Shown here: piece by piece, positions 1 through 29,812 of the stretch
How positions within the stretch are numbered: position 1 is the first letter of the stretch
How the letters are laid out: the number at the start of each line of letters is the position of its first letter
NCBI GenBank assembly: GCA_913058345.1
Contig: CAJXQR010000006.1
Span: 1 to 64,000 of the forward strand
Reading direction: 5' to 3'
DNA length: 64,000 nucleotides
Origin: an uncultured Gammaproteobacteria bacterium
GTDB taxonomy: Bacteria > Pseudomonadota > Gammaproteobacteria > Pseudomonadales > Porticoccaceae
Notes under the pieces: generated by a model
Told to the model about the DNA's origin: nothing
The model's input: the letters and a program-made list of their open reading frames with translations, nothing else
The model's database searches: none
Made by a program: the position numbers and the translations under genes

Positions 1-1189
1 AATAAATCACAGTTATTCGCTGCTCTATGGTGTCGTTTGTAGTAGGAATAATGCCGGTGTGGGCTTTTAGACCATTAATAATGAGAGTTTCGGACTTTTT
101 GATAAAGGGAATACCGAGGCTGTTTTTAATAAAGTCCGCTGGGCTGTCCAGAGTCCGCGCTTTTATATCCAGGGTTAAAGTGGCTGATTGTTGTTTGTTA
201 TGGCCGTTAATAGAAAGCCCTTTTTCGTTGAATATCCAGCCTGGAGGATAGTCAAATTGAAAGCGAAGTTTGTTGTGGTAAAAACGATTGGGTTGTTTCT
301 TTTTTGCGGCGGAGCTATTCCCCCAGGCTAATCCGTTTGTCGCGACGCGGAAATTACCCCGGTCGATATTTGGTGCGATTGTTTTTACCGGGTTTTCGTC
401 TGCGTTGGACGATAGTTTTAGCACTTCCCGCAGTCGCTTGTCATTGCGGGGGTGGGAGGCGAACAAACCGTGGTAGGTTGGGGTGTTTTTACCGGCATCG
501 GCGCTGCGTTTTTTGGTGTAACGTTCATGGGCTTTAAGTTGGCTAATAATAGCGAGCATAGCGTCAGGGTTATAACCGGCACGGTGTAAAAACTTGTTGC
601 CGAGGGCATCGGCCTCGAGTTCCATCTCGCGGCCATAACCTTTCACCGAGGCGGCCCCCCACTGGGCAGTTGCTTCGCCGACATCGGAACTGCGAGTGAG
701 TATGGCCAGTATACCAGCGATAATACTTGAGCTGGCTTGTGCGAGCTGCTGACTAGCGGCGTGTTCGGCGGTAATGTGGGCCACTTCATGGCCGAGGACA
801 GCGGCGAGCTGGCTCTCCGAATTCATGTAGGCTAGCAGGCCGCGATTGATATACACATAACCGCCAGGCGTGGCGAAGGCGTTGATGTCAGGACTGTCGA
901 GTACCGTGAAGGTGTATTCGTCATCAGGTGCATCACTGTGGCGAGCGATTTTTTGTCCAACTTTATCAACGTATTCAGTGATTGTTTTATCCATTACCAC
1001 GGGGATTTGTGCGGTTACTTCGTCGTACATTTGCCGACCAATACTGGCCGCTTTTTTATCAGACAGCATCAATACCTGTTGGGCTTTGCTGGGCAGTGCA
1101 ATAAAGAGTAAGACACTCAATAGTGATGCACTAAAGAGGGCGGCATTGGAAAATCTCAACAGCGATGATCGCAAATTAAGACGCTTCAT
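1..1189 (-). CDS. M48-family metalloprotease, exported, C-terminus outside window
   Basis: This reading frame starts at an ATG at 1189 and stays open to the window edge, so the C-terminal part is missing. The N-terminus is a signal peptide or membrane segment (FSNAALFSASLLSVLLFIAL) ending near PSKAQQ. The zinc-protease motif HEVAHITAEH (HExxH) follows the typical M48 lead-in AFATPGGYVYINRGLL. Known family members (BepA, LoiP) are periplasmic proteases in outer-membrane quality control. The start overlaps the end of the upstream lipoprotein gene by 14 bases, which indicates translational coupling as the last visible gene of the VWA/TolQ-like operon. The family call is firm. The substrate is unknown, although the context suggests processing of the envelope lipoproteins encoded beside it. 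Confidence 0.85.
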   Translation of the reverse strand, partial: MKRLNLRSSLLRFSNAALFSASLLSVLLFIALPSKAQQVLMLSDKKAASIGRQMYDEVTAQIPVVMDKTITEYVDKVGQKIARHSDAPDDEYTFTVLDSPDINAFATPGGYVYINRGLLAYMNSESQLAAVLGHEVAHITAEHAASQQLAQASSSIIAGILAILTRSSDVGEATAQWGAASVKGYGREMELEADALGNKFLHRAGYNPDAMLAIISQLKAHERYTKKRSADAGKNTPTYHGLFASHPRNDKRLREVLKLSSNADENPVKTIAPNIDRGNFRVATNGLAWGNSSAAKKKQPNRFYHNKLRFQFDYPPGWIFNEKGLSINGHNKQQSATLTLDIKARTLDSPADFIKNSLGIPFIKKSETLIINGLKAHTGIIPTTNDTIEQRITVIY

Positions 1190-1850
1190 TGGCCCTCTTC
1201 CTAAAGAAGGTGCGTAATTGCTGACCGATACCGTCACAGGCCTGATCCTGTACCTGGGCGACGATGGGAATCGGTAGGATGATGGCGACCATATAGGATG
1301 AGCCTCGGGCTTCTACTTTGACTCGACCGCTTTCTTTAAGGGCCAGCAAATCCCAGATAATGGCTTCGTAGGTGCCGGTTTTTTCCCAGCTTGCAAAGCC
1401 AAAACAGCCGCCGCCACCGGGGGCGACAGCACAACTTACCGAGCCGTCTCTATCGGTTGTTTCGGTACTGCCATCAACCCAGATCATATAGTGCAGCCCT
1501 TGTTCTTTGAAACGTTGAGCAATCAAAGGTTCATCGAGCATTTTGGCGAGACGTTTGAGACCTAGTGGTGCGGTGCGGGGTTCAAACCAGGGGTAGAGTA
1601 AATCAGCAAACTCTTTTTCAGGAAGGACTGAAATTGCCTTGTCGGCCTTTAATTTTTTACCTATACAGTCGATAAAATCAGGTTCAGTTTCGTAATCGGC
1701 ATAGTGGCGCCGACCCAGTACGACCACCCGCTCGCCATTCTCAAGTGTCAGTGCCGTACTGTTTTCCCGGTATTCGTCAACGGTGGTTGTCGTGCAGGCA
1801 CTCAGAGTCAAAAGCAGTATCAGTGTCGAGAGGGCAGTTAGAGGCTTCAT
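1176..1850 (-). CDS. Putative lipoprotein, 224 aa, VWA/TolQ-like operon
   Basis: I place the start at the internal ATG at 1850 because it opens a clean lipoprotein signal (MKPLTALSTLILLLTLSACT, lipobox LSAC). An upstream in-frame start at 1916 would add 22 residues without signal character. The mature protein has no family I recognise. It contains a basic/Trp-rich central part and a Gly run (CAVAPGGGGCFGF) flanked by cysteines that could form a disulfide. The start overlaps the previous gene by four bases (ATGA) and the end overlaps the M48 protease gene, so all three are probably coupled. Role unknown; an outer-membrane or periplasmic partner of the operon is the simplest inference. Confidence 0.75.
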   Translation of the reverse strand: MKPLTALSTLILLLTLSACTTTTVDEYRENSTALTLENGERVVVLGRRHYADYETEPDFIDCIGKKLKADKAISVLPEKEFADLLYPWFEPRTAPLGLKRLAKMLDEPLIAQRFKEQGLHYMIWVDGSTETTDRDGSVSCAVAPGGGGCFGFASWEKTGTYEAIIWDLLALKESGRVKVEARGSSYMVAIILPIPIVAQVQDQACDGIGQQLRTFFRKRANEAS

Positions 1851-2488
1851 GGCTGAGTGTTGACCTCTGGGGTGGGCGTTGTGGTGGACGTAGGTGTCGA
1901 GCGATGGCGTAGCCACTGTCGTATCTCGGGTACGCGAGCAAAGCCGGTAATAAAGTGTGCCCCAGCATCGCGCATTGCGACCATTGAAGCCTGTTGTAAA
2001 GCCTCGGTATCAGACTTTAAAAAGCGGGTGGGGGTTTTGCCATAGGCGGTCATAATCCAGTCAGCGACCGGTTCGCCCGTCCCTTCAAACACCTGCAGGT
2101 TATATTTTATCCATACCTCAAAGACCTTTAGCCGGGATTGGTTCGGCATCGAAATTTGTACATCTTCAACATTGGGCACGATAATTAAATCGGCCTCAGA
2201 ATTCGTTGGCATCTGTGTCGTGGTCGCGCTGTACTGAAACAAACTGTCAGTCAGACTCGTAAATAATTCGACCTGAATTTGCCCCACAGAAATACTGACT
2301 TCCGGCCCCTCGGTACTTTCAAAACGGTAGTTGGCAAAAGCCTCGTCAAAAACAACGATACTACGCAGTGGTAATTTGTGGATAAGCGCTGCGGGAAATT
2401 TGCCGTCCACTTCAACACGGGTGGCGCAGGCACTGAGGAGCAGGCTGACAAGCACAAGTGAGCAGAGAATTACATGCCGAATGTGCAT
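1847..2488 (-). CDS. Putative lipoprotein, 213 aa, VWA/TolQ-like operon
   Basis: The protein begins with a lipoprotein signal ending in the lipobox LSAC (VLVSLLLSACATRVEVDG). The mature part has an alternating hydrophobic pattern (IVVFDEAFANYRF; ISVGQIQVELFTSL; EADLIIVPNVEDVQI), which suggests a beta-rich domain like those of small outer-membrane assembly lipoproteins. I cannot name a family. It ends in a Pro/Thr-rich tail. It lies 32 bp after the VWA gene and overlaps the next lipoprotein start by four bases, so it is co-transcribed with them. Function is inferred only from context. Confidence 0.75.
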   Translation of the reverse strand: MHIRHVILCSLVLVSLLLSACATRVEVDGKFPAALIHKLPLRSIVVFDEAFANYRFESTEGPEVSISVGQIQVELFTSLTDSLFQYSATTTQMPTNSEADLIIVPNVEDVQISMPNQSRLKVFEVWIKYNLQVFEGTGEPVADWIMTAYGKTPTRFLKSDTEALQQASMVAMRDAGAHFITGFARVPEIRQWLRHRSTPTSTTTPTPEVNTQP

Positions 2489-2520
2489 GACTACCTTTTG
2501 ATCGTTGCTGTTAAAGGCAT

Positions 2521-3531
2521 TTAGGGTGTCTCACTCAGACTGTTTAGGCCAACAAAGGTGCCGCCATTGCGGTAGCTTAGCTCACGCATCAGTGTAGCGA
2601 AACGGCTCGCGGTTTCCATCCTGCCACCGGGCGCTAAAAAGTGCACGGGAAAGCCAATAGTATGAATGCGTACGCGTTGTTGTTGACGACCGGGTTGACG
2701 ACCGCGTTGGCGATTACTTTGAGCGACGGCCGCCAGCACCTGGTGAATGGAACGACCGGTGAAATCATCGCCAAAGACATAGAGGCTGATTTTTTTATCG
2801 GAGGCGTAAAAGGTCTGGATTGCCCGTTGAATACCCTCTACTGGACTGGAGTTGCTAAACGGCGTCCAGTGAGCGGTTTGATTGATAATAGCCCTGCGTC
2901 GCCCAGGCGTGTCTGGCAACCACTTGCCCCGGTAACTGGGGAACATATAGTCACCCATGTCGTTCATCACTTGAATACCCTTGACGGTGGGGTGAATGTC
3001 GAGAATATTAATGAGTTCTTTGCGGACTTTAGGCCAGGCGAAATCCACCATGCTGCCCGATGTATCGATAATAAAAACCAGGTATTCACTATCGACGGGA
3101 ATACCGCCAATTAAAGAGTTGGCCGTGGGGCTGCCCCGTTGTTGCAGGCGCTGCATTTCTTCACTGAGAATTTGTTGGGCGAGGATTAATTCATCGCGCT
3201 CGGTCGTGTCGGCCTGGGCAATAGACTGCAGCTGTCGGTTGACGCTCGCCAGTTGCTCACGCAGGCGCGCGATATGGCTTTCCAGCTCTGATAATTGCTC
3301 TTGCTTACCGGTCAGTCTTTGCGCCATTTTTTTTGTTTCGCCACGCAAGCTGAACAGCTCTTCCTGTAGCACTGTGACATTGTGATCTTGCGTCGGCTGG
3401 CTGTCATCCTGCGCGGTAAATTCAACGGTTTTGGCGATCAATAGCAAAAGGACGATAGCGCCAAAGCCACAGCTAATGACATCGAGAAAGGAAATACTAA
3501 TTTCAAGCGTTTGGCGTCGGGCTCTTTTCAT
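2521..3531 (-). CDS. Membrane-anchored VWA-domain protein, 336 aa
   Basis: A short cytoplasmic N-terminus leads into one membrane segment near residues 13-33 (SFLDVISCGFGAIVLLLLI). A coiled coil follows at about residues 48-115 (LFSLRGETKKMAQRL and heptads after it). The VWA domain starts near residue 150 with an intact MIDAS signature DTSGSM (Asp156). The topology puts the VWA domain in the periplasm. The segment carries LDV with an Asp at its start, as in TolR/ExbD stator proteins. The gene follows a sibling VWA gene after 19 bp and a TolQ-like channel is encoded upstream. The VWA and membrane features are visible. The stator-partner role is inferred. Confidence 0.85.
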   Translation of the reverse strand: MKRARRQTLEISISFLDVISCGFGAIVLLLLIAKTVEFTAQDDSQPTQDHNVTVLQEELFSLRGETKKMAQRLTGKQEQLSELESHIARLREQLASVNRQLQSIAQADTTERDELILAQQILSEEMQRLQQRGSPTANSLIGGIPVDSEYLVFIIDTSGSMVDFAWPKVRKELINILDIHPTVKGIQVMNDMGDYMFPSYRGKWLPDTPGRRRAIINQTAHWTPFSNSSPVEGIQRAIQTFYASDKKISLYVFGDDFTGRSIHQVLAAVAQSNRQRGRQPGRQQQRVRIHTIGFPVHFLAPGGRMETASRFATLMRELSYRNGGTFVGLNSLSETP

Positions 3532-3550
3532 CGTCTCTTTATTCTCCCGC

Positions 3551-4624
3551 TTATGGCCAGTCTCGTGAGGGGCTTAAAAAAGCGCCCCTGCTGGTGAGAC
3601 CCAGTTTCCAGAACAGGGCAGCCGCCGCGGGGTCTCCTTCCATCGGGAATAAAATAATATTCACTGGCACGCCTCTGGGGAGAGTCTTGACCGCGCTCTC
3701 AAAAAGTTGAGCGCGCGCCCTGCCGGACACAGTGGTGTGGCTGGGTTGACTTTCTCCCTGGGTGGGCAGCCCGTCGGTAATGAGAAAGATGTTATCCGGG
3801 CGCTGGGTAAACATACCGGTGACGGCAAAGGCATTGATTAAGCTGGTGCCGCCTGCGGGCAGGGTCTTCTTTAACTGCGCAATGATCGAGTCCATGGTGA
3901 TGTTGTCGGCGGCGTCCTGCCATTGCAAATGACTATTGCTCAGTACCGGTGTGGCTTTGGTGTTAAAGGTATAAAGCTGGTATTGGCTGCGCGCTGGCAG
4001 TTGGGCGACCAGCCATTCGACGGTGCGTAATGCACGTTGCCATTTTGGCGATTGTCGCTTGATGGCGTCGCTCATATTGCGTTGGCGTAGCACATCAATA
4101 ATGGTTTCAGCCAGCATGCTGTCAGAGGCATCGAGCAGTATCAACACACGGTTGCCGCCCAGTTTTAGTCCGGTTAAATACTGCCTGTCACCATCGCCGA
4201 TAAACTGGCGTACATCCTGACTGGCACCGGCGTCCTGTAATTCAGCGGTTTGCTGTTCCAGCATTTCAACCTGTTTACGCAGTTGGGCAATTTGTTGTTC
4301 GGGGTCACTTTGGGTGCTGAGTTCTCGCTGGCTTTGTTTGACATCGTCCAGTACGCGATCTGATAAGCCCTGGGTTGCAACCAGTTTTTCGTCTATTTCA
4401 TTGAGGCTGTTGCGCAACTGCGCTCGCTGTCGTTCGCCGTCTGTAATATCTGCCTGAAGTTGTGCAATTTCCCACTGTGTGCCCGCCTCGTTTTCAGCTG
4501 CAGATAAATCACTGGGGTCGTGTTTGAGGAGAAGAAATAGCAGCGTCACCGCACCAAAACCACAGGCCATAATATCTAGAAAAGACAGGCTGAAGGTATT
4601 GAGCTGGCGACGCTTGCGGGTCAT
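3551..4624 (-). CDS. Membrane-anchored VWA-domain protein, 357 aa (paralogue of the next gene)
   Basis: It has the same plan as its neighbour: a basic N-terminus, a membrane segment with the matching motif SFLDIMACGFGAVTLLFLLL, a long coiled coil (about residues 45-140, rich in Gln/Glu/Leu), then a VWA domain with MIDAS DASDSM (Asp165) and the late VWA motif FLITDGLPTQGE. Two paralogues side by side suggest a heterodimer or a mixed stator. The start codon overlaps the stop of the Hsp70-like gene (ATGA), so the two are coupled. VWA domains bind metal and protein ligands. The ligand here is unknown. Confidence 0.85.
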   Translation of the reverse strand: MTRKRRQLNTFSLSFLDIMACGFGAVTLLFLLLKHDPSDLSAAENEAGTQWEIAQLQADITDGERQRAQLRNSLNEIDEKLVATQGLSDRVLDDVKQSQRELSTQSDPEQQIAQLRKQVEMLEQQTAELQDAGASQDVRQFIGDGDRQYLTGLKLGGNRVLILLDASDSMLAETIIDVLRQRNMSDAIKRQSPKWQRALRTVEWLVAQLPARSQYQLYTFNTKATPVLSNSHLQWQDAADNITMDSIIAQLKKTLPAGGTSLINAFAVTGMFTQRPDNIFLITDGLPTQGESQPSHTTVSGRARAQLFESAVKTLPRGVPVNIILFPMEGDPAAAALFWKLGLTSRGAFLSPSRDWP

Positions 4625-5997
4625 GAGGCTATTTCAATCAGCGTCAGCGTTTGAGAACCGATAGTGATGTTCGTGCCGCTGGGTAAATCATTCCAGTCGT
4701 CATCACAGGTAATAGCCACTGATTGATTGTTTTGTTTTAAAACGATACGCCCATTATCAAGGCTAATTTCTGCAACAGGCTGCAGAGCAGGATTATTCGT
4801 GGTTTTCCCTGAAATTAATGGCGTGCCATCACTGAGCAGCACTAAGCCTCCAGCCAGTGGGTAGGCGCGATGACCCTGTAATAGATGGGTGGCACTGCGT
4901 AATAGATGGGTGGCACTGCTTTGTTGGGGTGAGCCTGTCGATAGCGCTGTAGTAGATCGTACTGACAGTTTACCGGGCCGTGATAAGGCGGGCAGGGCGG
5001 TAATAAAGCTTAACTGGGTATCACCCTGAGTCGTGTCCGCAGCGGCAGCGATGGCATCGCCTTGAGCCAGGCAGGCAGTGAGAGAAGCATCGGCGGCGAG
5101 AGTGACAATGTTGTCATGCCCCGCCGCTTTGAGAGTGTCGATCACTCCCGGCAAGCTGGCGAGTCGGTGACTGAGTAAAAGGTTGTCATAGCGCGTGCTA
5201 TTCAGCGCCTCGGCCAAGCGTTGCCAGCGCCGTTGATTGGCGGCAATGAATTCACTGCGCTGTATGCGCACGCGAAAATCCCCCTGTGGGGCACTGAGTT
5301 CGGTTTCGATATCCGTTTCGGTATTGAGCTGTGCTATCCAGGCGGGCAGCCGGTCGTGTAATTGTTGCTCACCGGCGGCCGTGTGCAGGGGGTCGTAGCG
5401 GTATTCGCGAATAAAGCGGTCGGCAATAAACTGTGCCCAGGTATCGTGAATAGCCTTTAAAGGAATGTCCGGGTATTGACTGGCGCTTTGTCGCCGCACT
5501 CGTTCACCACTGTTTAATTCACTCAAGACGGTGGTGTGCAACTGAATATCGGCGTGTAGTAAAGCGCCCTTGAGGCCCGACTGGCTAGCGGCGGCCACGG
5601 CGGCATCAACCAGCCCCGCCGCATGAAAAGGTGAGGCCTTAACCAATCCAAGTAATATGCCCAAGTGCTCGGCAGAGGTATTGCTGGGCATGGCAAAAAT
5701 CATCTGTTGAGGCTGCCCGGTATCGGCATACAGTTGCTGCAATTGCGCATAGGCCAGGTCCGCATGATGGCGGGCGTGCTGATTGCTACTACTTAGCGGT
5801 GACAGGCTGAGCTGATACCAATACTGATTGAAACTTTGCTGGGGCTGCAGCCAGGCCTGCTCGAGTGCTTGTTGCCCGGTGATAACGCCCTGGTTGTGTA
5901 ACAGGGCGTAACCGGGACTGATGATTGCGGGCTCTTCACGGTCGGCGGCATGACACAAAATACCACTGTCGTTTAATTCTATAATTGCTGTACGCAA
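4621..5997 (-). CDS. Hsp70/actin-like protein with extra C-terminal beta domain, 458 aa
   Basis: The start is a TTG at 5997 chosen for the strong ribosome site AGGGGG seven bases upstream. The order of short motifs follows the Hsp70/actin ATPase fold: an N-terminal beta hairpin with Asp and Gly (ELNDSGI), a connecting stretch FAMPSNTSAEHL then AGLVDAAVAAA, a second phosphate-like loop (LHADIQLHTTVLSEL), an IQRSEFIA helix, LLLSHRLASLPGVIDTL, and DASLTACLAQGDAIAAA. The Gly-rich nucleotide loops are poorly kept, so ATP hydrolysis is doubtful. The last 80 residues look like an FHA-like or other small beta domain. A 21-bp unit is exactly duplicated at 4878-4919. It lies between the channel gene and the VWA pair. 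Fold assignment is moderate and function unknown. Confidence 0.6.
   Translation of the reverse strand: MRTAIIELNDSGILCHAADREEPAIISPGYALLHNQGVITGQQALEQAWLQPQQSFNQYWYQLSLSPLSSSNQHARHHADLAYAQLQQLYADTGQPQQMIFAMPSNTSAEHLGILLGLVKASPFHAAGLVDAAVAAASQSGLKGALLHADIQLHTTVLSELNSGERVRRQSASQYPDIPLKAIHDTWAQFIADRFIREYRYDPLHTAAGEQQLHDRLPAWIAQLNTETDIETELSAPQGDFRVRIQRSEFIAANQRRWQRLAEALNSTRYDNLLLSHRLASLPGVIDTLKAAGHDNIVTLAADASLTACLAQGDAIAAAADTTQGDTQLSFITALPALSRPGKLSVRSTTALSTGSPQQSSATHLLRSATHLLQGHRAYPLAGGLVLLSDGTPLISGKTTNNPALQPVAEISLDNGRIVLKQNNQSVAITCDDDWNDLPSGTNITIGSQTLTLIEIAS
4878..4919. repeat. Exact tandem duplication of a 21-bp unit inside the Hsp70-like gene
   Basis: The 21-bp unit at 4878-4898 is repeated without change at 4899-4919. 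It adds seven residues in frame (ATHLLRS followed by ATHLLQG) in the linker before the C-terminal domain. This looks like recent replication slippage. Confidence 0.9.
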
Positions 5998-6007
5998 ATT
6001 TTGCCCC

Positions 6008-6826
6008 CTAATCAGTCTTTAAATGACGCAGTAAATGTTGGTCGCAGTAATTGTGAATATCCAGCACCTGTCTTTCCTGTAATAGCTGTAACTGATGCAT
6101 ACAAAACATCACCACGATGCTGATCACCAGGGCGATAAACGTAGAGTTAAAAGCGACACCGAGGCTGGAGGTAACGCCGACAATATCCCCCTGCACAGCG
6201 CGGTGTGCCTGGCTTAGAGCTTCGCCGATGCCGCGCACTGTGCCGATAAAACCAATGGAGGGTATCGCCCAGGCGATGTAACGCACCATGGAAAGCTCGG
6301 CGTCCAGTCGATCGGACTCGCTATCACACACATCGTTAATTGCACTCGAGACATCTTGAATATTGCGCGTTGCGCCAAAGCGTTGCAGACCGGCAAGCAA
6401 TGCACGGGTCAGTAACAGGCCGCGCTGCGGTTCAGGCAGCGCCTCCAAAGGTCGGGATAATTGCCGGGCGTCTTCGGGGAGTACGCGATTGCCCTCACCA
6501 ATTTGCAACAGGGTTTGTTGCAGTAATTGCCGTTCTCCCAGGGCACGCCGCGCTTTAAAACTCATAATAGCAATCGACCAAATCAGCAAAATAAAACAGG
6601 TTTCCTGTTCATAATCTTTAACCACCGTGTAAAAGGAACGCTCTGCGACGATAGCCTGCCCAGCCGCTTCTCGGGCCAGTTGCTCTTCCATAATGGCTGC
6701 GGCATTCGGGCGAATTATTGTTAGATAAAGCGTGTGCACGACGATGATCGCTGCGAGCAGGGCGAAAGCCTGGTAGAGAAATTCGCTCGAAAGTGGGTTG
6801 TGACTGTGTTTGCTGTTAGCGTTCAT
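6008..6826 (-). CDS. TolQ/ExbB/MotA-family proton channel subunit, 272 aa
   Basis: The protein has an N-terminal membrane segment (LYQAFALLAAIIVVHTLYLT), a second near residues 74-90 (CFILLIWSIAIMSF), and the family's paired C-terminal segments: YIAWAIPSIGFIGTVRGIGEAL and SSLGVAFNSTFIALVISIVVM. The PSIGFIGTVRGIGEAL block is the classical MotA/TolQ/ExbB signature. Known members form pentameric proton channels that drive a TolR/ExbD/MotB dimer. No TolR or ExbD gene is adjacent in this operon, but two VWA proteins with a TolR-like membrane motif are encoded just downstream. The true tolQ is elsewhere in the window (25830), so this is a separate, specialised channel. Confidence 0.85.
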   Translation of the reverse strand: MNANSKHSHNPLSSEFLYQAFALLAAIIVVHTLYLTIIRPNAAAIMEEQLAREAAGQAIVAERSFYTVVKDYEQETCFILLIWSIAIMSFKARRALGERQLLQQTLLQIGEGNRVLPEDARQLSRPLEALPEPQRGLLLTRALLAGLQRFGATRNIQDVSSAINDVCDSESDRLDAELSMVRYIAWAIPSIGFIGTVRGIGEALSQAHRAVQGDIVGVTSSLGVAFNSTFIALVISIVVMFCMHQLQLLQERQVLDIHNYCDQHLLRHLKTD

Positions 6827-6902
6827 GTTTTATCCGGTGGGTTTTTGTCGGGCTAAAATCACAGGTAATATAAAATCACCGATAATAAAAGGCATAGACT
6901 TT

Positions 6903-7205
6903 TTAAATATCGACGGGAAATGGCACAGAATAATCTTCCAGTATTTCTTCGCTGGGTTTAAAACGCGATGTGCTATTCGCAGCTTTAGCGGGTGGTTGAG
7001 GAGGGGCTTGTTGTTTTTTTTCGTGCGTCTTGTTTGAGGCGTTTTTTTCTGCTGGCGCACTCGCTGTTGCGTTAATATCTGACGATGCCTTGTCCTGTGC
7101 GCTCAATACCTGTACGGGCGCCAGGCATAGGATGACGAAAACCAGTTGCCAGAGCCTGGGTGATGAGCTGTTCATAAAAGAGTGCTTGTTTCTTTTTATA
7201 CGCAT
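6903..7205 (-). CDS. Small exported protein, 100 aa, unknown function
   Basis: A signal peptide (LWQLVFVILCLAPVQVLSAQ) is followed by a low-complexity Ala/Lys/Pro stretch and a short C-terminal segment FKPSEEILEDYSVPFPVDI. A second start at 7175 would give a shorter leader; neither start has a good ribosome site. The last part could be a short periplasmic binding peptide on a flexible linker. It sits 17 bp after the PEGA/SUMF1 gene in the same orientation. No family recognised. Confidence 0.6.
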   Translation of the reverse strand: MRIKRNKHSFMNSSSPRLWQLVFVILCLAPVQVLSAQDKASSDINATASAPAEKNASNKTHEKKQQAPPQPPAKAANSTSRFKPSEEILEDYSVPFPVDI

Positions 7206-7222
7206 ACGGTCATGGTATTACT

Positions 7223-9304
7223 TTATTCAGCGTAGCGGGCAATGCGAAAGCCCAAATCATCGCGGGCGCTGTCACTGTAGTCGCGGTAGGACAAGCGGAG
7301 TTCTGTCATGCCGCTGTGTCGCCAGCTCGCCCCCCGGACAATTTTGAATTGCCCTTTGCTGGGGCCGACGGGGTCTTTTTCTACACTGCCAGACGCATTC
7401 ACCGCAAGGCTGTAATAGTCGTTAACCCATTCGGCAACATTGCCGCCCATATCGTACAGGCCTTTATCGTTAGCCTGCAGGCTGGCCACGGGAGCAGAGA
7501 CTACAAAGCCGTCATTGTAGTCTCTGAGTACGCGGGGCAGAATATTGGCGGCACTGGCATCGGCGATATTACTGGTTTTTTTGGCTGGCACGAGTGATTT
7601 CCCCCAGGGGAATTTTGCCATCTCGCCTTTTTGCCAGCGCGCAGCCCAGGCCCATTCAGCTTCTGTGGGTAGACGATAACCCAGGGCTTGTGTGTCGTAA
7701 GCGCTGATTTCGCCATCTTTTTCAATATAAAAAGGCGCTAAACCTTGCTGTTCGCTCAGCCAGTTACAGTAGAGTGCTGCGCTGGTCCAGGTGACACTGA
7801 CAACGGGCTGGTGCCGTTGATTGAGGGTGTGGCCATTGGCGTGGTTGGAGGTGTGCTGTCGTCTGAATTGCTGAAATTGTTGGTTGCTGACCTCCGTGCT
7901 AGAGAGGTAGAAAGGGCGCTTCAGCTCTACCTTACGCAGTATTTCATTGGCGCGGCGGCCTTGTTCACGGCGCGATGCGCCGAGTGTCAAAACGGTATTG
8001 GGGCGAAATAATTTTAATGGCTGTCCGCCAGGAGCAGTAATCATGGCGGGAATACTGGCGGCACGGGTTTGAGCCTCAGTTTTCAATGTTACCTGTAGTG
8101 TGCGTTCAACGCCCGGTTGTGGTGTGAGTGTTGCGATGTGACTGGTATAACCTGCTTTGCGAATTTCAATACGGTGGGGTCGTGCCAGTAGTTGCAGGCT
8201 TTGTCTGGCGCTACCTTTAGCGACACCGTCGATATATAGCTGGGCATCGGCGGGTTGCGCGTTAATTTTCAGCGTGCCGAGTTTGGGTTTAAGGACAACA
8301 TTTAACGCGCGTTGCTCACCAGTTTTGAGGCTCAGCGAATGGCTGGCGGGGTAGTAGCCGTCCAGGTAAAGCTGCAGTTGCTGCGGGCGAGAGGGTGCTA
8401 GTTGTATTTGCTGCGGTGTCGTGCCCACATAGTGACCATTGTGGGTAATACCTGCACCCGGGGGTTGTGAACTCAGCGCTAAAGTCCCATCTGCAGGCTG
8501 CAGTTTAATCAAGGGCAATGTGCGTTGTTCACCGGCGGGTACGCTCAGTGTTTGTTGCCACGGCTTATAGCCGGCGAGTCGGAGCGTTACCGTTTCGCCA
8601 CTTTCAAGAATATCAATGGTGGAAGGTGTGCGACCCTGGCTTTTACCCTCGAGCAGAATGTCTGCTCCGGTGGGTTCAGAGATAATTTCCATCTGGCCCC
8701 AGGCAGGTTGTAAATCGATTGCGAGGTGCTGGGTAATGTCCAAGCCCTTAATATCGATAGCCTCGCTATGGGGCAGGTAGCGTTCGGCCTCTGCCTGCAG
8801 GGTATAGCGACCGCTGGGAATGTTTTGCAGGGTAGTGGGGGTCTCACCTTGCCAGCTTTCCTGAGTATCATTTTTCAGGCTGACTTGTACGGTTTTGGGG
8901 TGGGCTTTAATACTGAGATGACCGGGCATTTTTTCTAATGCCAGCGCGTAATGTTGTTGAGCCGCATCGCTGACCTGTAATTCCTGCTGTAAATCAAAGT
9001 GACCAGGGGCGCTGAGTTGCAGTTGAAAGGTGCCAGGGCGCATTAAATAGCGTCCGCCAATAGAGAAATACAGGCCGCCAGAGACGTCAATAGTGGCCGT
9101 TGCCGGCGAGGGTTTTAATGCCACCGAGCGTGCAGTCAGTAGAAACCAGAGCAGGCCAAGGGCAATACATAGCGCAACAACGATGAGTGTTGGCCCAGCG
9201 CGAAATGGAGAGCGTCGATTGTTTTCAGGACCACCGACAGGCGTAAAGTCGATGGGGCTAATAACGGGGTTGTTAGCTGAGTCGCTCGTCTTGTCTTCTA
9301 CCAT
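7223..9304 (-). CDS. PEGA-repeat protein with formylglycine-generating-enzyme-like (SUMF1) domain, 693 aa
   Basis: A cytoplasmic N-terminus of about 35 residues is followed by one membrane helix (TLIVVALCIALGLLWFLLTA). The large periplasmic part has several PEGA-like repeats (EPTGADILLEGKSQGRTP; QPPGAGITHNGHYVGTTP; QPADAQLYIDGVAKG). The last 250 residues form a SUMF1/FGE-type domain with STEVSNQQF, PVVSVTWTSAALYCNWL, YRLPTEAEWAWAAR, LYDMGGNVAEWVNDYY and IVRGASWRHS. The paired active-site cysteines of true sulfatase-modifying enzymes are not evident, so the domain is probably a binding or scaffolding module. PEGA domains are commonly surface- or wall-associated. Confidence 0.85.
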   Translation of the reverse strand: MVEDKTSDSANNPVISPIDFTPVGGPENNRRSPFRAGPTLIVVALCIALGLLWFLLTARSVALKPSPATATIDVSGGLYFSIGGRYLMRPGTFQLQLSAPGHFDLQQELQVSDAAQQHYALALEKMPGHLSIKAHPKTVQVSLKNDTQESWQGETPTTLQNIPSGRYTLQAEAERYLPHSEAIDIKGLDITQHLAIDLQPAWGQMEIISEPTGADILLEGKSQGRTPSTIDILESGETVTLRLAGYKPWQQTLSVPAGEQRTLPLIKLQPADGTLALSSQPPGAGITHNGHYVGTTPQQIQLAPSRPQQLQLYLDGYYPASHSLSLKTGEQRALNVVLKPKLGTLKINAQPADAQLYIDGVAKGSARQSLQLLARPHRIEIRKAGYTSHIATLTPQPGVERTLQVTLKTEAQTRAASIPAMITAPGGQPLKLFRPNTVLTLGASRREQGRRANEILRKVELKRPFYLSSTEVSNQQFQQFRRQHTSNHANGHTLNQRHQPVVSVTWTSAALYCNWLSEQQGLAPFYIEKDGEISAYDTQALGYRLPTEAEWAWAARWQKGEMAKFPWGKSLVPAKKTSNIADASAANILPRVLRDYNDGFVVSAPVASLQANDKGLYDMGGNVAEWVNDYYSLAVNASGSVEKDPVGPSKGQFKIVRGASWRHSGMTELRLSYRDYSDSARDDLGFRIARYAE

Positions 9305-9336
9305 TATTTTTTATTGCTCATACTACGAATTACCCA

Positions 9337-10959
9337 CTAAATGGCTTCCTGACATTGCACAACGATCGGAGCGGCACTCGCCCCCCGTTGCGTAGGCAGA
9401 ATCGTAAATTCTACCCGTACATCGCGGTAACCGGGGCGTATCCCCTCAGCGATATAATTGCCCGGCTTTAATTGCAAGGTTTTTTCGTTAAAGGGGGCAA
9501 ACTCTCCCACCTTAAAGAGTCTGACACGGGTGAGATTGTCAGAGTGTAATACTACGGTTTGTGGTTGCTGTGCATTGACCAGTACTTGACTTAAGATTTT
9601 GATTTGCTGTTTGAGCCGTGGCCCGGCCCGAGCAATTTGCTCGGCATCGCGAAGGCTTTTCTGAGCTTCACGAAAGACCGCAGGGCTCGCCAGGCGTAGT
9701 GGCTGGTCAATAAACTGTTCAAGAGTGCTGTCGAGTTGCTGCCGAGCAGCGCTGCGAATTTTACCAATAGTGGCGGCTGTAACAGCGGGATCACGGCTGA
9801 GAATGCTGTCATAGGCGTCCAGGGCCATTTGCCACTGCTCTTGACTTTCATGGTCCTGGGCGCTGTTGAGCAAACGGGTGATGCCGCGTTGAGCAATTTC
9901 ATTATCGACTTGTGCTCGCCCGCTCTGTGCAACTGCTGACTGGGGCTTGAGGGCCAGGGCCTGGGAAAATTGTTTGCGAGCTGTGTCGAGATGACCACTG
10001 TGCAACGATTGGAAACCCTGATTAAGGGCGCGCTGAAATTGCGCATCATCTTCTAAACGTTGTGCTTCTTTGCGGCCTGAAATGGCTGCTTCAAATAGCG
10101 GGTCGAGATGCAATGCCTGGGTGTATTCAGCTAGTGCACCCGCATAGTCACCTTTCAGTAGTAGGGCTTCGCCACGTTGGGTGGCCGCGAAAACCTCTGG
10201 CAGAGAGCCAATGCGTTCCAGACCCTGTCGCGCTTGAGTATGGTTTTCCTCAATCAATAATATTTTTTCGAAGGCTTGCTGAGCGGCTTCGCCCCGCCCT
10301 TGATTGAGTGCCGTCATACCCTGGTGGAGGAGTTGGCTAATGTGTGGCTCGCGTCCGGCTTCGAGTGTGTCGAGCAGGTTTTCGGCGGTTTCATAATGAG
10401 CAAGGGCCGCCTTGAAGTCGCGATTGCGGTAAAGCTGGTCACCCTCGTTTGCAGTGTCCAGTGCTTGCTGGTATTGCGTCGCGGCCCACTGCTGGACATT
10501 CAGGCTATCCAGTGTCTGTTGCTTCTGCAGAACGCGAGCGAGAATATCTTGCGCGCTGCGGCGGGCCGCAGCGAGCTGGGCTGTCTGGAAAGGTGTCTCT
10601 TCTACTGTCGGCGTATCCTCCGTCGGCCGGTGTTCTGTGGTACTCGGTGACTGATTTTCGATAAGCTCTTGTGTCGCTTCGTCTTGAAAAGCGATGGCGA
10701 GAAATAGCGCTAACACGCAAGCGAGGACAGTCAGTATTGTGCTGTAAATCCAGCGGCGCGAAGCGTCAGTGCGGGGCGAATGATTAGCGGTAGCAGAGCT
10801 GTCATCGGCCGACTGCTGGTCACCCGGGTTGAGGGTCTGGGTTAATGGTTTAGACAGCGGTATGTCAGCCGCTGTGATGGGCTGAAATTTTTCCGGGACA
10901 ATCGTCTCGTCGCCGTTTCTGCTGTTGTTGTTAACGTTGTCGTCAATGTTATCGGGCAT
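9337..10959 (-). CDS. Membrane-anchored TPR protein, 540 aa
   Basis: The N-terminal 70 residues are polar and Asn/Asp-rich. One membrane helix (WIYSTILTVLACVLALFLAIAF) follows. Tetratricopeptide repeats run from about residue 160 to 390 (YRNRDFKAALAHYETAENLL; LLKGDYAGALAEYTQALHLD; SGHLDTARKQFSQALALKP). The C-terminal 100 residues look beta-rich (VRLFKVGEFAPF; GNYIAEGIRPGYRDVRVEFTI), resembling a PEGA-type domain. The start overlaps the stop of the upstream lipoprotein gene (TAATG). It is likely a scaffold for the machine encoded by this operon. The TPR call is firm and the role is inferred. Confidence 0.8.
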   Translation of the reverse strand: MPDNIDDNVNNNSRNGDETIVPEKFQPITAADIPLSKPLTQTLNPGDQQSADDSSATANHSPRTDASRRWIYSTILTVLACVLALFLAIAFQDEATQELIENQSPSTTEHRPTEDTPTVEETPFQTAQLAAARRSAQDILARVLQKQQTLDSLNVQQWAATQYQQALDTANEGDQLYRNRDFKAALAHYETAENLLDTLEAGREPHISQLLHQGMTALNQGRGEAAQQAFEKILLIEENHTQARQGLERIGSLPEVFAATQRGEALLLKGDYAGALAEYTQALHLDPLFEAAISGRKEAQRLEDDAQFQRALNQGFQSLHSGHLDTARKQFSQALALKPQSAVAQSGRAQVDNEIAQRGITRLLNSAQDHESQEQWQMALDAYDSILSRDPAVTAATIGKIRSAARQQLDSTLEQFIDQPLRLASPAVFREAQKSLRDAEQIARAGPRLKQQIKILSQVLVNAQQPQTVVLHSDNLTRVRLFKVGEFAPFNEKTLQLKPGNYIAEGIRPGYRDVRVEFTILPTQRGASAAPIVVQCQEAI

Positions 10960-12251
10960 TACTGAGACGTTTGCTCATCGTTACTGATGTCGGCTGATGT
11001 ACCACGTTCAAGCGCGTAGATTTTTTGTAGTAATTGCTTCCACTGCTGATATTGCGCTTGCACATTGCCGCTTAGAGTGATGGTTTGATCTTCCAGGGTA
11101 ACGGTGCGTGGCTCGACTTCACTTTCCAGCGACTGGCCCAGCTCTGCCAGAGCTTCGATATGAATTTGCGCCTGCCCTTTTTTTGCCAGCCCACTTTTGA
11201 CCAGCAAAGCGCCACTACCAATAGCGACGGCCCCTGCAGCGCGCGTTGCACGACTATTACTACCGGCGGCAACGATGCCGGCAATAACTGTGACAATACC
11301 ACCGATGGTTCTCTCTCGTGACTGGCGCTTCAGTTGGCGAACAGCGAGTATTTCATCATAATTTTGTGTGCGCCAGCTTTGGTACGGGGCTTCCATTTGC
11401 AATGAAAAGGCATCGTAATATTCTTGAGTGGTATCGACAAACAGATAGTCTCGCTCACGAATTCGTTGTATGCGTTGCAGAATGGGGTCGTTAGTGGCGG
11501 GCAGACGTTTAATCTCGAGCACACCCTTGCGATTGGCCTCAAGGTGTTGTTCGAAAGCCTCAGGACTGAAATCTCGGGCAAAACGCAGGGTAGAGATATT
11601 GCGCAGGTTGGTCGCCTGCTTACCACCCAGGGTCTCACGGTGGTCAAGTAAATCGTTGGCAATGCGGTTAAACAAGCCCTGAAACGGATCGCGCTGCAAG
11701 CTTTGGCGTCGGTCGTAGGCGTATTTGCTGGCTGTTTGAGAGTAACTTCTTTGATACCACTGTCGCCCGCTGGTGTCAGTGACGGTAATGCCCAGCGTTA
11801 GTTTCTCTCCGTCGGAATGGAGAATGATGCCTTCAACATAAACATCGGTAACGACCTCCTTACTGGGTAGCACGCGCACCGCGCCCCAGGCCGCACTGTC
11901 CTGAAGGGTGCGAGTGAGCTGGTTGGCGAGATAGTGCCCCTCGGCAATGCGCACAGCGGGCAGCACAATGTCTGCTTGTTCGTCACTCAAATTATCTAAA
12001 CCGGGGTCGAAAGCCAGTACCCCAAGGTCGAGAAGTTCGGCCTCGGCAATTTCTTTGTTTTCTAACTGCAGAGGCGTGTAGGTGGTTGATTTAACCTGAA
12101 TGGGCGCATTACAGGCCGTCAACAGCAGGCTTATAAGCACGCAGACAGTGCTATTGATCCTGGCATAGTTGATCCTGATAGAGTTGAGCCTGGCACAGCT
12201 GTTTCTGACAAAATCGCGCTTAGCAGGGTCGGCCTTGGCAAGGTTGATCAT
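10959..12251 (-). CDS. Putative lipoprotein with glycine-zipper segment, 430 aa
   Basis: A lipoprotein signal ending in LLLTAC lies unusually far in (about residue 47), after a repetitive leader (LNSIRINYARINS), so the true start may be downstream of 12251. The N-terminal domain (LGVLAFDPGLDNLSDEQAD; DVYVEGIILHSDGEKLTLGI) resembles periplasmic domains of outer-membrane assembly lipoproteins. A small hydrophobic Gly/Ala stretch near residue 330 (TIGGIVTVIAGIVAAGSNS, then AAGAVAIGSGALLVKSGLA) looks like a membrane-inserting glycine zipper. It is coupled to the TPR gene by a TAATG overlap. No family name can be given. Confidence 0.7.
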   Translation of the reverse strand: MINLAKADPAKRDFVRNSCARLNSIRINYARINSTVCVLISLLLTACNAPIQVKSTTYTPLQLENKEIAEAELLDLGVLAFDPGLDNLSDEQADIVLPAVRIAEGHYLANQLTRTLQDSAAWGAVRVLPSKEVVTDVYVEGIILHSDGEKLTLGITVTDTSGRQWYQRSYSQTASKYAYDRRQSLQRDPFQGLFNRIANDLLDHRETLGGKQATNLRNISTLRFARDFSPEAFEQHLEANRKGVLEIKRLPATNDPILQRIQRIRERDYLFVDTTQEYYDAFSLQMEAPYQSWRTQNYDEILAVRQLKRQSRERTIGGIVTVIAGIVAAGSNSRATRAAGAVAIGSGALLVKSGLAKKGQAQIHIEALAELGQSLESEVEPRTVTLEDQTITLSGNVQAQYQQWKQLLQKIYALERGTSADISNDEQTSQ

Positions 12252-12295
12252 TTTTGTGGGTTTTTTAACGTCTCATCTCCTCTTTACAGTGCAAA

Positions 12296-13111
12296 TTATT
12301 GTTGGTTTTTGTACTTGCGGTATTCATCCCAGAGCTTTTCTCGCAATGCGGGGTCTTTCTCTTTTAGCGCCGCTTCGCGAATTTGACGAGCGACAATATC
12401 GTCGTCACTGCCGCCATCAATATCTTCGGGTATGCCTCCGCGTCGAGTTGTCTCCGGTCCGCCGGAGCCTGCAGTACTACTTTCAGCGGCCGATTCGCCG
12501 TGGCTGGCGTCACCGCCGGGGGTGGCACTTGCGTCTTCATTGCTGGCTTGTTGACCGTCGGTTTCGCTGTCACCCTGGTCGGCACTTTCAGGAAAATCGC
12601 CGTAACCGGGTAGGCCTTCGTAGATATCACCGTCTTCAAACAGAGAGCCATCACCACCAGAGTCGCCGCCGAGTTCGCCGCTATTTGCACCACCGTTATC
12701 ACCACCCAGGCTGGCTTCGATGGCTTCGGCTTTGGTGCGCTCATCGAGAATCATGCCATCAAAATCGGCGATGGAGGCATCGAGTTCGGTGTCGAAATCG
12801 GCAATAATTTCTTCATCACTGCGAGCGGAGCGAGTGCTACCGGGGGTGATACTGCTCTGCCCTGAATCAATAGCTTGTTGTGTCTGCGACGGTGACTGCG
12901 ATTGCGGTTCGCTCGCCTGGCTTTGGGGCTGAGCTGGCATTGGTGCCTGGGTGGGAGTGCTGGCGCTTTTACAGCCACTCAGGAAAAGCCCCAGTAAAAG
13001 CCCCGTCAATAATACGGCTTTCAACGAGTGTTTATCGCTTGTCTCCTTAGAGTCTGTCTCCTTAGAGTCTGTCTCCAGTAAAAGTGAGACAAAAGTGTTA
13101 TGGCGGAACAT
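12296..13111 (-). CDS. Low-complexity acidic lipoprotein, 271 aa
   Basis: The start at 13111 is supported by AAGGA six bases upstream. A signal with lipobox LSGC (AVLLTGLLLGLFLSGCKS) follows an N-terminal extension that contains the repeated peptide ETDSK. The mature protein is rich in Gln/Ser/Pro and then Asp/Gly/Glu (for example GGDNGGANSGELGGDSGGDG) and probably disordered. It ends with a charged helix (EAALKEKDPALREKLWDEYR). Likely a flexible envelope tether. No known family. Confidence 0.65.
   Translation of the reverse strand: MFRHNTFVSLLLETDSKETDSKETSDKHSLKAVLLTGLLLGLFLSGCKSASTPTQAPMPAQPQSQASEPQSQSPSQTQQAIDSGQSSITPGSTRSARSDEEIIADFDTELDASIADFDGMILDERTKAEAIEASLGGDNGGANSGELGGDSGGDGSLFEDGDIYEGLPGYGDFPESADQGDSETDGQQASNEDASATPGGDASHGESAAESSTAGSGGPETTRRGGIPEDIDGGSDDDIVARQIREAALKEKDPALREKLWDEYRKYKNQQ
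13041..13076. repeat. 15-bp tandem repeat (2.4 copies) in the lipoprotein leader
   Basis: The unit at 13041-13055 is repeated exactly at 13056-13070 and six further bases match at 13071-13076. It encodes repeated ETDSK residues in the N-terminal leader before the lipobox. Copy number may vary between strains without a frameshift because the unit is a multiple of three. Confidence 0.9.
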
Positions 13112-13151
13112 AGGTGTCCTTAAATGCTGGTGTCGAGAAAGCGGTAAAGCC

Positions 13152-14477
13152 TTAGTGTATCAACGGTATTTTGACCCTGAGATCACTGACATAGGTAGGC
13201 TTATTATCGACAAACTGGGGTCGAAAGCGAGAGTCTTTAATGGCGTCTACCAACAGATAACGTAAGCTGGTTTTACTCTTGGGAATTTGTTTGGCAAATA
13301 ATGTTTCCTGAATGTTTTTAATGCGGCTGCCCCAGCCCTTTTCTGAAATATCGACATCAGCTGTCACTAGCAGCGCAGCCTGTCTGTCGCCATGGTTTTC
13401 CATACGCATGGCTGGCAGCAGGTGCGGAGTGGCGAAAAGTCTGGCGTGTAGTGTCTCGGCTTGATCGGAAGCCGCCATGTGTGTCAGTACCTGCTGATAG
13501 TGATGCATGGCTTCTTGCCGGTGGTTGAAGAGGAGATACCAGTCAGCGAGTTCTGTTTGTGCCCGCAGTTTTTCTTCTAAAGACGCGTTGGGTAGGGCTG
13601 CGGTCAGGTCAATGATACGTTCGTGGCAAGCCCTGCCACGGCGGAAACTGGCACCGTTAAGAATCCCCGCACGCTGTGGGTTGGCGGAGGCAAAACCATC
13701 AGCACTCAGGCTGTAGTGCGAATCTGTGGAAGTTGACCACTCGTCACCCTCGTGGCGAGACAAGTGAAAATTGATCAGAGCGGCGCTACGCAGTAGTTGA
13801 ATCTGTTCACGGGGTTTTAGGTCTGTGTGAGCCTCATTCAATTTAAGTGCGCCGGTGATTAAGCTATTCGCCGATGTGAGGTGGTCAATGCGCTTGCTGC
13901 TGTCATCGAATTGATAGGCGTCGATGTGCCACAGTGCGAGTTCGTTTAAGAGTGGCGCTAAGCGAGGATCTTGTTTGCCATAACTTGCCATGTGCATACG
14001 CAATAGCTGGCGGTAGCTGTTGGTGACAGGCTCAAAGTTCATTAAGTATTTTTGACTATTGATAATACTGCGTAACATGGGAGCCTGCGCCAAACTGTTG
14101 AGGCCGCGGTTGACACGAGTGATGTGCATGGCCCGACGCAATGCTTTTAAAGCCTTGGCGTGTTGCCCACCTTTTTGTAATTCGAGTCCAAGGCTGTACA
14201 GCACTTCAGAGGAGTTTTGATAATAGGGCCCTTCAGCTTTGTGATTTTGTAAGGTGGAATAATAAGCGGAGAGTTTGGTCGAGGTGTTCTCCGTGTGCCG
14301 CGTCGTTAGTTGATTGCCCGCGCCCTTAGATTCAGTGGCGAGCAAAGAATCCGCTATAGCCAGGGGGGCGAGCCCAAAAGTCGAGATACTCACTGCTAAG
14401 AGCCCGGCAAGCCCGGCGGACTTTAGTGACACCCAGCGTAATGTTTGTGTTTGATGAGTCAGTTTGCTGTTTATCAT
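13152..14477 (-). CDS. Exported TPR-like protein with TonB-like C-terminus, 441 aa, probable first gene of the operon
   Basis: A long signal peptide (LKSAGLAGLLAVSISTFGLAPLAIAD) precedes helical repeats of TPR type (EVLYSLGLELQKGGQHAKAL; ADWYLLFNHRQEAMHHYQQV). The last 40 residues (RYLLVDAIKDSRFRPQF then VSDLRVKIPL) match the pattern of TonB C-terminal domains, where SRFRPxF is typical. It has no same-strand gene directly upstream; a divergent gene starts at 14818, so the operon promoter should lie in 14478-14817. It probably acts in the periplasm as a scaffold. Family assignment is by pattern only. Confidence 0.7.
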   Translation of the reverse strand: MINSKLTHQTQTLRWVSLKSAGLAGLLAVSISTFGLAPLAIADSLLATESKGAGNQLTTRHTENTSTKLSAYYSTLQNHKAEGPYYQNSSEVLYSLGLELQKGGQHAKALKALRRAMHITRVNRGLNSLAQAPMLRSIINSQKYLMNFEPVTNSYRQLLRMHMASYGKQDPRLAPLLNELALWHIDAYQFDDSSKRIDHLTSANSLITGALKLNEAHTDLKPREQIQLLRSAALINFHLSRHEGDEWSTSTDSHYSLSADGFASANPQRAGILNGASFRRGRACHERIIDLTAALPNASLEEKLRAQTELADWYLLFNHRQEAMHHYQQVLTHMAASDQAETLHARLFATPHLLPAMRMENHGDRQAALLVTADVDISEKGWGSRIKNIQETLFAKQIPKSKTSLRYLLVDAIKDSRFRPQFVDNKPTYVSDLRVKIPLIH

Positions 14478-25401: not shown

Positions 25402-25802
25402 CAGAGTTCCGCCTACCGATTCGCGTTTACATTGAAGATACAGATGCCCAGGGTATCGTTTACTACGTTAATTATCTTAAATTTATGGAGCGTGCCCGCT
25501 CAGAGTGGTTGCGTAGCTATGGCTTTGATCGACCGGCTTTTGGTGATGAAGGGCAAATTTACGTGGTTCACTCCTTGACAACCCAATACCGCAAGCCGGC
25601 CAAGCTCGATGACGAAATTGTTGCGACGGCGAAGGCGACAGCTTATGGCAAGGCTTATTTTGTGGTGGAGCAAAAAGTTTTGCGTGGCGATGAACTACTT
25701 TGCGAGGGAAGTATCAAAGTAGCCTGTGTCAATCAGGCTAGCGGGCGTCCAACGGCGATGCCGAAAGAAATGACAGAAAAAATATTTCGCCATTTGTCTT
25801 AA
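25398..25802 (+). CDS. ybgC: Acyl-CoA thioesterase of the Tol-Pal cluster
   Basis: This hotdog-fold 4HBT thioesterase has the signature [20 protein letters not shown] with the catalytic Asp near residue 15 and [12 protein letters not shown]. It hydrolyses acyl-CoA or interacts with phospholipid enzymes at the inner membrane. The location between ruvB and tolQ is the standard tol-pal arrangement. The 134-residue length is normal. Confidence 0.95.
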
Positions 25803-25829
25803 TAAGCTCAACTAACAGTGGAGTGCTGC

Positions 25830-26519: not shown

Positions 26520-26523
26520 TCCG

Positions 26524-27821: not shown

Positions 27822-27876
27822 TGTCTTGCTCGGCGATAGTTTAATGGATTAGTGATTAGCGTTTCAGAGGTAAATC

Positions 27877-29160: not shown

Positions 29161-29216
29161 AGAGAATCGTTTAAAGTACTCTTCGTTCGTCTGTCCTCAT
29201 CTATTAGGAAAATATT

Positions 29217-29732: not shown

Positions 29733-29812
29733 CCTCGAGCTATTCAATACCCTGCTATTGATGTTCTTACATTAAAGCAGGGTGAAGTCGTGTCGAATCA
29801 AGAGATAGACGC

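Follow-up and report, generated by a model that had tools for sequence, protein, structure and literature searches.

A conserved operon with a TolQ-like channel, paired vWA proteins and a protein of predicted Hsp70 fold as a candidate trans-envelope motor in Porticoccaceae and their relatives

Gene content of the operon

We analysed a stretch of 64,000 nucleotides (hereafter the window; contig CAJXQR010000006.1, positions 1 to 64,000) from an uncultured gammaproteobacterium of the family Porticoccaceae, at the beginning of which an operon of thirteen minus-strand genes (2-14477) is located. The genes, here called g1 to g13, overlap or are separated by intergenic gaps of 10-76 bp. The initial annotation had described at least twelve genes running in the same direction with overlaps or short gaps, among them a proton-channel subunit, a pair of vWA proteins, an Hsp70/actin-like protein, TPR and PEGA/FGE proteins, four lipoproteins and an M48 protease. 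Our analysis brings the number to thirteen and recovers every part of this list. Signal peptides and lipoboxes given below were recognised by eye.

13152-14477, minus strand: g1, secreted TPR protein with signal peptide, TonB_C-like C-terminus in orthologs; variable part
12296-13111, minus strand: g2, lipoprotein with a long low-complexity linker and a conserved C-terminal helix; core
10959-12251, minus strand: g3, lipoprotein with an alpha/beta domain and a long helical hairpin; core
9337-10959, minus strand: g4, single transmembrane helix and TPR; core
7223-9304, minus strand: g5, short cytoplasmic tail, transmembrane helix, PEGA repeats and FGE/SUMF1 domain; core
9239-9262, minus strand: ISPIDFTP in the g5 tail, linear motif and predicted g8 docking site
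6903-7205, minus strand: g6, small protein with signal peptide and conserved C-terminal tail
6008-6826, minus strand: g7, TolQ/ExbB/MotA-like proton-channel subunit; core
4621-5997, minus strand: g8, TTG start, cytoplasmic protein with Hsp70 nucleotide-binding domain (NBD) fold and C-terminal beta domain
3551-4624, minus strand: g9, vWA protein 1 with Asp17 in its transmembrane helix, coiled coil and metal-ion-dependent adhesion site (MIDAS); proposed axle half
2521-3531, minus strand: g10, vWA protein 2 with Asp17 in its transmembrane helix, coiled coil and MIDAS; proposed other axle half
1847-2488, minus strand: g11, lipoprotein
1176-1862, minus strand: g12, lipoprotein
2-1195, minus strand: g13, M48 metalloprotease with signal peptide (Peptidase_M48, E 1.3e-36)

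Because base 1 of the window is also base 1 of the contig, g13 is incomplete and nothing further is visible downstream. Promoter-like matches inside the operon (15 versus 10.9 in shuffled sequences, standard deviation 3.2) and terminator-like matches (19 versus 19.1) are both close to background, and the scan neither supports internal promoters nor excludes them.

Conservation of the operon across relatives

All locus counts refer to 96 distinct loci out of 136 (L032-L147, L197-L216), which were gathered through g10 and comprise non-duplicate loci with a good g10 and at least 9.8 kb upstream of it; the presence of g10 in 96/96 loci is hence given by construction. The genes g2, g4, g5 and g9 are each present in 96/96 loci, and g3 and g7 in 95/96, the exception being L209 (genome G326), in which g7 lies on another contig and g3 is missing as well. 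Further, g8 is present in 84/96 loci, g6 was detected in 85/96 and g1 in 72/96, while for the 90 loci that extend 3.5 kb or more beyond g10 on its downstream side we counted g11 in 81, g12 in 80 and g13 in 74. The constant core consists of g2, g3, g4, g5, g7 and g9, and the variable part of g8, g6, g1 and g11-g13. The same gene order is also seen in relatives with a g10 identity of no more than about 50%. The initial annotation had asked whether channel, vWA pair and Hsp70-like gene always occur together, which holds for the former two but not for the Hsp70-like gene.

A search with g10 in the set of relatives returned a match in 74 of 116 genomes, the own genome counted. By rank, these are 6/6 in the genus, 60/65 in the rest of the family (including G012, whose sole match is a short g9-type piece) and 7/44 in the rest of the order. 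A weak order-level match (G076/L055) was dismissed, as no operon is found at that place. The gene is thus near-universal in the family (66/71 other genomes), to which HTCC2207 and SAR92 members belong. Of 273 other genomes drawn class-wide, 20 gave a match, counting G204, which holds a distant relative of the system only, and G201 and G212, which hold short pieces. A phylum-wide draw of 349 gave 16 matches, 13 of them from one family of another class. Of at least 548 relatives the best 80 were retained, with Porticoccaceae, Microbulbifer, Halieaceae, Pseudoalteromonas and Thalassotalea among the named loci.

This distribution bears on a possible relationship to the anti-phage system Zorya, for which a weak PADLOC match of g7 to ZorA (E 0.00068) and a weaker one of g6 to ZorG (E 0.011) could be quoted. 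Defence genes usually show a patchy spread, unlike the near-universal presence of g10 in the family; in addition, no other Zorya component was found, and what else PADLOC matched is weak and largely due to coiled coils (10 of the 13 proteins scanned, g1 and g3-g11). We regard a defence function of this kind as highly improbable.

Two variations of the layout were observed. In L204, g7 is relocated to the opposite side of g10, and a reduced operon g2-g3-g4-g5-g7-g9-g10 occurs in L197-L201, L210, L211 and L216, which belong to one family of another class and to two members of the same class. The reduced version is perhaps ancestral.

The channel protein g7 and the vWA proteins g9 and g10

The g7 protein matches MotA_ExbB in Pfam (E 1.2e-15, 57.9 bits versus a cut-off of 22.9) and aligns to the TolQ encoded in the same window in the region of the GTV motif (E 1.3e-4 and probability 53% in hhalign). 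No variation was seen at T196 or T229 across 33 sequences, T229 being equated with a pore threonine of TolQ by eye only. No match to ExbD/TolR was obtained in Pfam for any of the 13 operon proteins. Both vWA proteins instead share an N-terminal transmembrane helix of the form FLDxxxCGFGA, which is found in 107/108 g9 and 108/108 g10 sequences, the lone g9 sequence without it being a stretch of N at this place. The aspartate, Asp17, is invariant in the 32-row alignments of both proteins, unlike the transmembrane helices of g4 and g5, where an acidic residue occurs in 1/105 and 0/107 sequences, respectively. According to hhalign (99.4%), g9 and g10 have homologous N-terminal regions, with 28% identity over g10 residues 1-142. 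Regarding the vWA heads, g9 matches VWA_2 (Pfam E 1.4e-6), as do 30 of 32 members of its alignment, and the own Pfam VWA match of g10 is weak (E 0.025). The MIDAS motif DxSxS is kept in 106/107 g9 and 108/108 g10 sequences. Against solved structures, the profiles of g9 and g10 returned coiled coils only.

This arrangement resembles motors that have been described by Williams-Jones et al. in 2025 (PMC12204202). Their section on TPH-vWA proteins, in which an Idiomarina locus serves as reference, portrays a pentamer of TolQ type whose TPH-vWA partners come as heterologous pairs; these vWA proteins carry a proton-binding aspartate, occur without tolR/exbD and are modelled inside the pentamer. In common with these motors, the operon has vWA genes that adjoin a tolQ-like gene but no tolR/exbD, a conserved aspartate in the vWA helix (107/108 g9 and 108/108 g10 sequences), and heterologous vWA pairs, with g9 present in every one of the 96 g10 loci. 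Hence, the operon core and the TPH-vWA motors very probably represent the same family. Neighbouring genes for Hsp70, PEGA, FGE, lipoproteins or a protease are not named in the same section, which also makes no mention of g8 docking, kinase/FHA links or linker co-variation as described below; the terms 'hsp70', 'sumf1' and 'pega' are absent from the main text. In the open PMC literature we found no account of the surrounding gene set with its Hsp70-like protein, of the motif in the g5 tail, of the link to kinase and FHA domains or of the linker co-variation. The earlier statement that no named system has this gene set thus needs to be narrowed: the motor core of TolQ-like channel and vWA pair is already in print, and 'undescribed' holds at most for the remaining genes.

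We considered two arrangements of the vWA proteins. In the first, they would form the axle of the motor. In the second, they would be TolA/TonB-like arms on the side of a motor whose axle is borrowed from a TolR/ExbD protein encoded elsewhere. The genome holds eight ExbD-family matches that could supply such an axle, the sole one in the window being TolR (26545-26937), and a vWA family of this type exists in other bacteria according to the TPH-vWA account cited above. Moreover, hhalign gives no link between the vWA helix and ExbD: compared with 20 ExbD/TolR proteins (script-cut from 29 ExbD loci, with one of them, L236, mis-cut), the helices of g9 and g10 reached 1.4% and 2.7%, within the range of control helices (0.3-3.5%). 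The shared aspartate helix may therefore be convergent, which counts against an axle of the TolR type, and the g7 profile likewise gave no match at E 0.01 in a sequence search against solved structures. Against the side arms, the conserved aspartate follows directly on a short, mostly basic N-terminus as in the TolR of the window, the g9/g10 helix is by eye devoid of the SHLS motif of side-binding transducers, and the vWA pair is accompanied by its own channel gene in 95/96 loci. We therefore consider side arms quite unlikely and an axle composed of the vWA proteins likely.

Co-variation of the g9 and g10 linkers

As linker length we took the interval between the Asp and MIDAS motifs, a stretch that contains the coiled coil. 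The linker lengths of g9 and g10 co-vary, with a raw Spearman coefficient of 0.85; independent contrasts on the tree gave r 0.68 (0/5000 permutations) and a rank correlation of 0.36. Among control trait pairs, 34/35 have |r| <=0.19. Several observations weaken this result. The coefficient drops to 0.34 once the five largest contrasts are removed, the sign agrees in only 25 of the 37 contrasts in which both linkers change, and 19 contrasts show a change in one protein alone. In addition, one control pair (g3 versus g5 spacing, 39 loci) attained r 0.99, a value that depends on few contrasts, and for three g3/g5 spacing pairs (27 to 60 loci) the rank correlation (0.49, -0.47 and 0.39) is larger in magnitude than the 0.36 of the linkers. 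Taken as a whole, the co-variation moderately favours a parallel heterodimer of g9 and g10, the arrangement that we favour for the axle.

A comparable case is the AglRQS motor of Myxococcus gliding, which according to the parts of PMC9389320 concerned with it consists of one MotA-like and two MotB-like subunits. The likeness lies in one channel with two different partner subunits, AglQ and AglS being MotB homologues, for which the same paper leaves the formation of heterodimers undecided. A 5:2 motor with two different axle subunits would be directly testable in the present system, since g9 accompanies g10 throughout.

The Hsp70-fold protein g8 and the cytoplasmic tail of g5

While g8 has no Pfam match, its predicted structure has the fold of the Hsp70 NBD. 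The 50 matches listed in VIA-align are Hsp70-family chains, which leaves other actin-like folds possible, and the C-terminal domain of g8 is barely covered. By Pfam, an FHA domain is found in 0/31 members of the main g8 alignment, the sole match being the more distant ortholog in L203.

The distribution of g8 is mirrored by a short motif, IxPxxFxP, in the cytoplasmic tail of g5. Of 127 loci with g5, 114 are distinct including the window, and three without a detected transmembrane helix were excluded (L064 and L084, which are cut, and L209, in which it was not detected). The motif is present in 92/98 loci with g8 and in 0/13 without it. The six g8-bearing loci lacking it are L063, whose tail is cut short, L094, L106, L146, L203 and L205; five of the six carry near-matches by eye. 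Overall, 88/107 tails contain the motif versus 1.4/107 in shuffled tails. Where g8 is missing, as in L052, L053, L099, L134 and others, the g7-g9 junction has no remnant space. On the tree, five inferred changes of g8 underlie the co-distribution. As the motif tracks the presence of g8, the latter probably docks on the g5 tail, in a manner that may be likened to PilM on PilN and that can be tested directly. In the PilM-PilN and FtsA-FtsN pairs an actin-fold cytoplasmic protein recognises the short cytoplasmic tail of a bitopic protein, as treated in the relevant parts of PMC7613929 and PMC5805733. Unlike PilM and FtsA, the listed matches of g8 are Hsp70-family chains, one ortholog has an FHA domain, and binding by g8 is predicted from the co-distribution.

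A number of findings speak against this view of g8. The protein is dispensable, being absent from 12/96 loci. The strict tail pattern changes nine times on the tree versus five for g8, and it was formulated after the tails had been inspected. A related motif, [IV]x[PA]x[DE][IVFL], occurs in the cytoplasmic tails of g4 (10861-10959) in only 36/92 g8 loci, with 1/13 in loci without g8 and a mean of 1.6 in shuffles. Finally, Hsp70 proteins possess a glycine-rich phosphate-binding loop, and the segment of g8 at this position (placed by eye) is a conserved DxQLH(Q/T) in the 33-row alignment. With the glycine-rich loop replaced, the use of ATP by g8 is doubtful.

In L203, not only g8 is modified by an additional domain: its g4 ortholog (L203:14219-16648) carries an N-terminal Ser/Thr kinase domain (Pkinase, E 3.9e-29). 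By eye, the g4 ortholog of L205 (812 aa) resembles this kinase-fused form. FHA-like N-termini of g5 were suspected by eye in L202 and L203, for which Pfam gave no confirmation.

Predicted periplasmic and outer-membrane components

In the periplasmic part, g5 carries an FGE/SUMF1 domain and PEGA repeats (FGE 2.2e-42, PEGA 1.9e-39; Pfam). FGE/SUMF1 enzymes have a catalytic cysteine pair in their C-terminal region. In 33 g5 sequences, no cysteine is present from residue 640 (numbering of the g5 protein encoded in the window) to the end, and one cysteine, at residue 513, is shared by nearly all of them; given the absence of the C-terminal cysteines, the FGE domain is probably structural and non-catalytic. 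In NCBIfam, this domain matches GldK with an E-value of 6e-37. GldKLM of type IX secretion likewise has an FGE-fold protein, GldK, beside a 5:2 motor, so a surface-adhesion or gliding machine similar to Bacteroidetes GldKLM or myxobacterial Agl/Glt has to be weighed. This reading would also accommodate the one channel with two different axle proteins, as in AglR with AglQ and AglS, and the binding of peptides by vWA MIDAS motifs, which is reported in the vWA part of PMC7159879. The GldK score of 127.9 bits is far below the cut-off of 350 (10/13 proteins scanned), g5 differs from GldK by a predicted inner-membrane helix and PEGA repeats, and further components of the Gld, Agl or Glt sets were not recognised. 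We thus judge a gliding or adhesion machine of these types rather unlikely.

The PMC7159879 account also covers MoxR-vWA ternary systems. Unlike these, the operon shows no MoxR AAA+ ATPase, as none of the 13 proteins matches AAA+ up to an E-value of 1.

The second functional reading that we considered is an outer-membrane maintenance machine similar to Tol-Pal, in which g3 and the other lipoproteins would be equivalents of TolB and Pal. The AlphaFold2 model of g3 (mean predicted local distance difference test score 85.0) has no Foldseek match at E<=0.001; its best matches are TolB and LptE, a weak resemblance that suits this reading. The window protein g1 contains TPR_12 (E 5.2e-8, Pfam) and gives no TonB_C match at E<=1, and in 7/9 scanned g1 orthologs a C-terminal TonB_C was found at E<=0.0072, two of them above the cut-off. 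Together with the M48 protease in 74/90 loci, this also fits maintenance of the outer membrane. On the other hand, OmpA/Pal domains are found in none of the 13 proteins, and an ordinary tol-pal cluster is complete in the same window (25398-30610: ybgC, tolQ, tolR, tolA, tolB, pal and cpoB, named by eye), so that the machine does not replace Tol in this genome. We regard this as a possible but doubtful account; it is a reading of function and compatible with the motor model given below.

In more general terms, the machine would resemble Tol-Pal and Ton in having a proton-driven pentamer, in the force transfer through the periplasm to the outer membrane that we propose, and in the TonB_C of g1 orthologs. 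Unlike them, the operon has no TolR/ExbD, TolA or Pal match, and no TonB-type membrane arm was recognised.

The lipobox pattern was recognised in 16/33 g2, 20/32 g3, 28/35 g11 and 33/35 g12 sequences, and none of the recognised lipoboxes has an aspartate at position +2, which fits sorting of the lipoproteins to the outer membrane. Two conserved ends were noted besides. Orthologs of g2 share a C-terminal helix of the approximate form DDDIVARQIREAAxKExDPxLREKLWDEYRKYK (12296-12430) following the long low-complexity linker, and g6 and its listed orthologs have a nearly fixed tail, approximately FxPSExISEDxxVPFPxDI, after a variable linker.

Proposed mechanism

We propose the following model. In the inner membrane, g7 would form a pentamer of the TolQ/ExbB type, in which one g9 and one g10 would together constitute a two-chain axle in place of TolR/ExbD, with the Asp-bearing helices inside the pore. 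Both chains would pair via their coiled coils and present two metal-binding vWA heads to the periplasm, where g4 with its TPR and g5 with PEGA repeats and FGE domain may serve as scaffold. The lipoproteins g2 and g3, in most relatives along with g11, g12, g1 and g13, would make up the outer-membrane side, and the vWA heads may bind or pull a ligand there. On the cytoplasmic side, g8, taken as a divergent Hsp70-fold protein that also has an FHA-like domain, would dock on IxPxxFxP of the g5 tail and thereby set or gate the machine, which some lineages may link to the Ser/Thr kinase fused to g4.

The 5:2 stoichiometry, the heterodimer, the flow of protons, the docking and the regulation are the parts of this model that we infer, whereas the gene set and its conservation, the conserved Asp and MIDAS residues, the co-distribution of motif and g8 and the predicted fold of g8 are observed. 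For the model as a whole, a proton-driven trans-envelope motor with g7 pentamer, vWA axle and g8 docked on g5, our confidence is somewhat better than even. An energised trans-envelope machine, as suggested in the initial annotation, fits the evidence; the assembly of surface structures and the binding of the cell wall, which it also named, would be guesses. No phenotype or localisation data were found for the system, which detracts from the model, and outer-membrane upkeep or surface attachment would be our guess for its job in the cell.

A wider interpretation would place this operon next to Ton and Tol as the third general motor that spans the envelope in many marine gammaproteobacteria, with a TolQ-like pentamer around an axle that is always a vWA heterodimer, a periplasmic scaffold engaged through its tail motif by a non-canonical Hsp70-fold/FHA protein from the cytoplasm, Ser/Thr kinase wiring in some lineages and hence a chaperone-fold switch of a rotary motor. 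This we put forward tentatively, and on balance we lean against it. In either case, the operon offers candidate partners for the TPH-vWA motors published in 2025 and, for an Hsp70-fold protein, a docking motif that can be put to the test.

A distant mini-system

Apart from the operon relatives, a distant mini-system was noticed in L214 (5322-10770), which adjoins genes that look chemotaxis-like by eye and combines a TolQ-like channel and an FHA protein with two PP2C phosphatases, one of them on the opposite strand, a trypsin-FHA protein and a single vWA protein with an Asp-bearing transmembrane helix. Used as query, this vWA protein found matches in 4/274 genomes.

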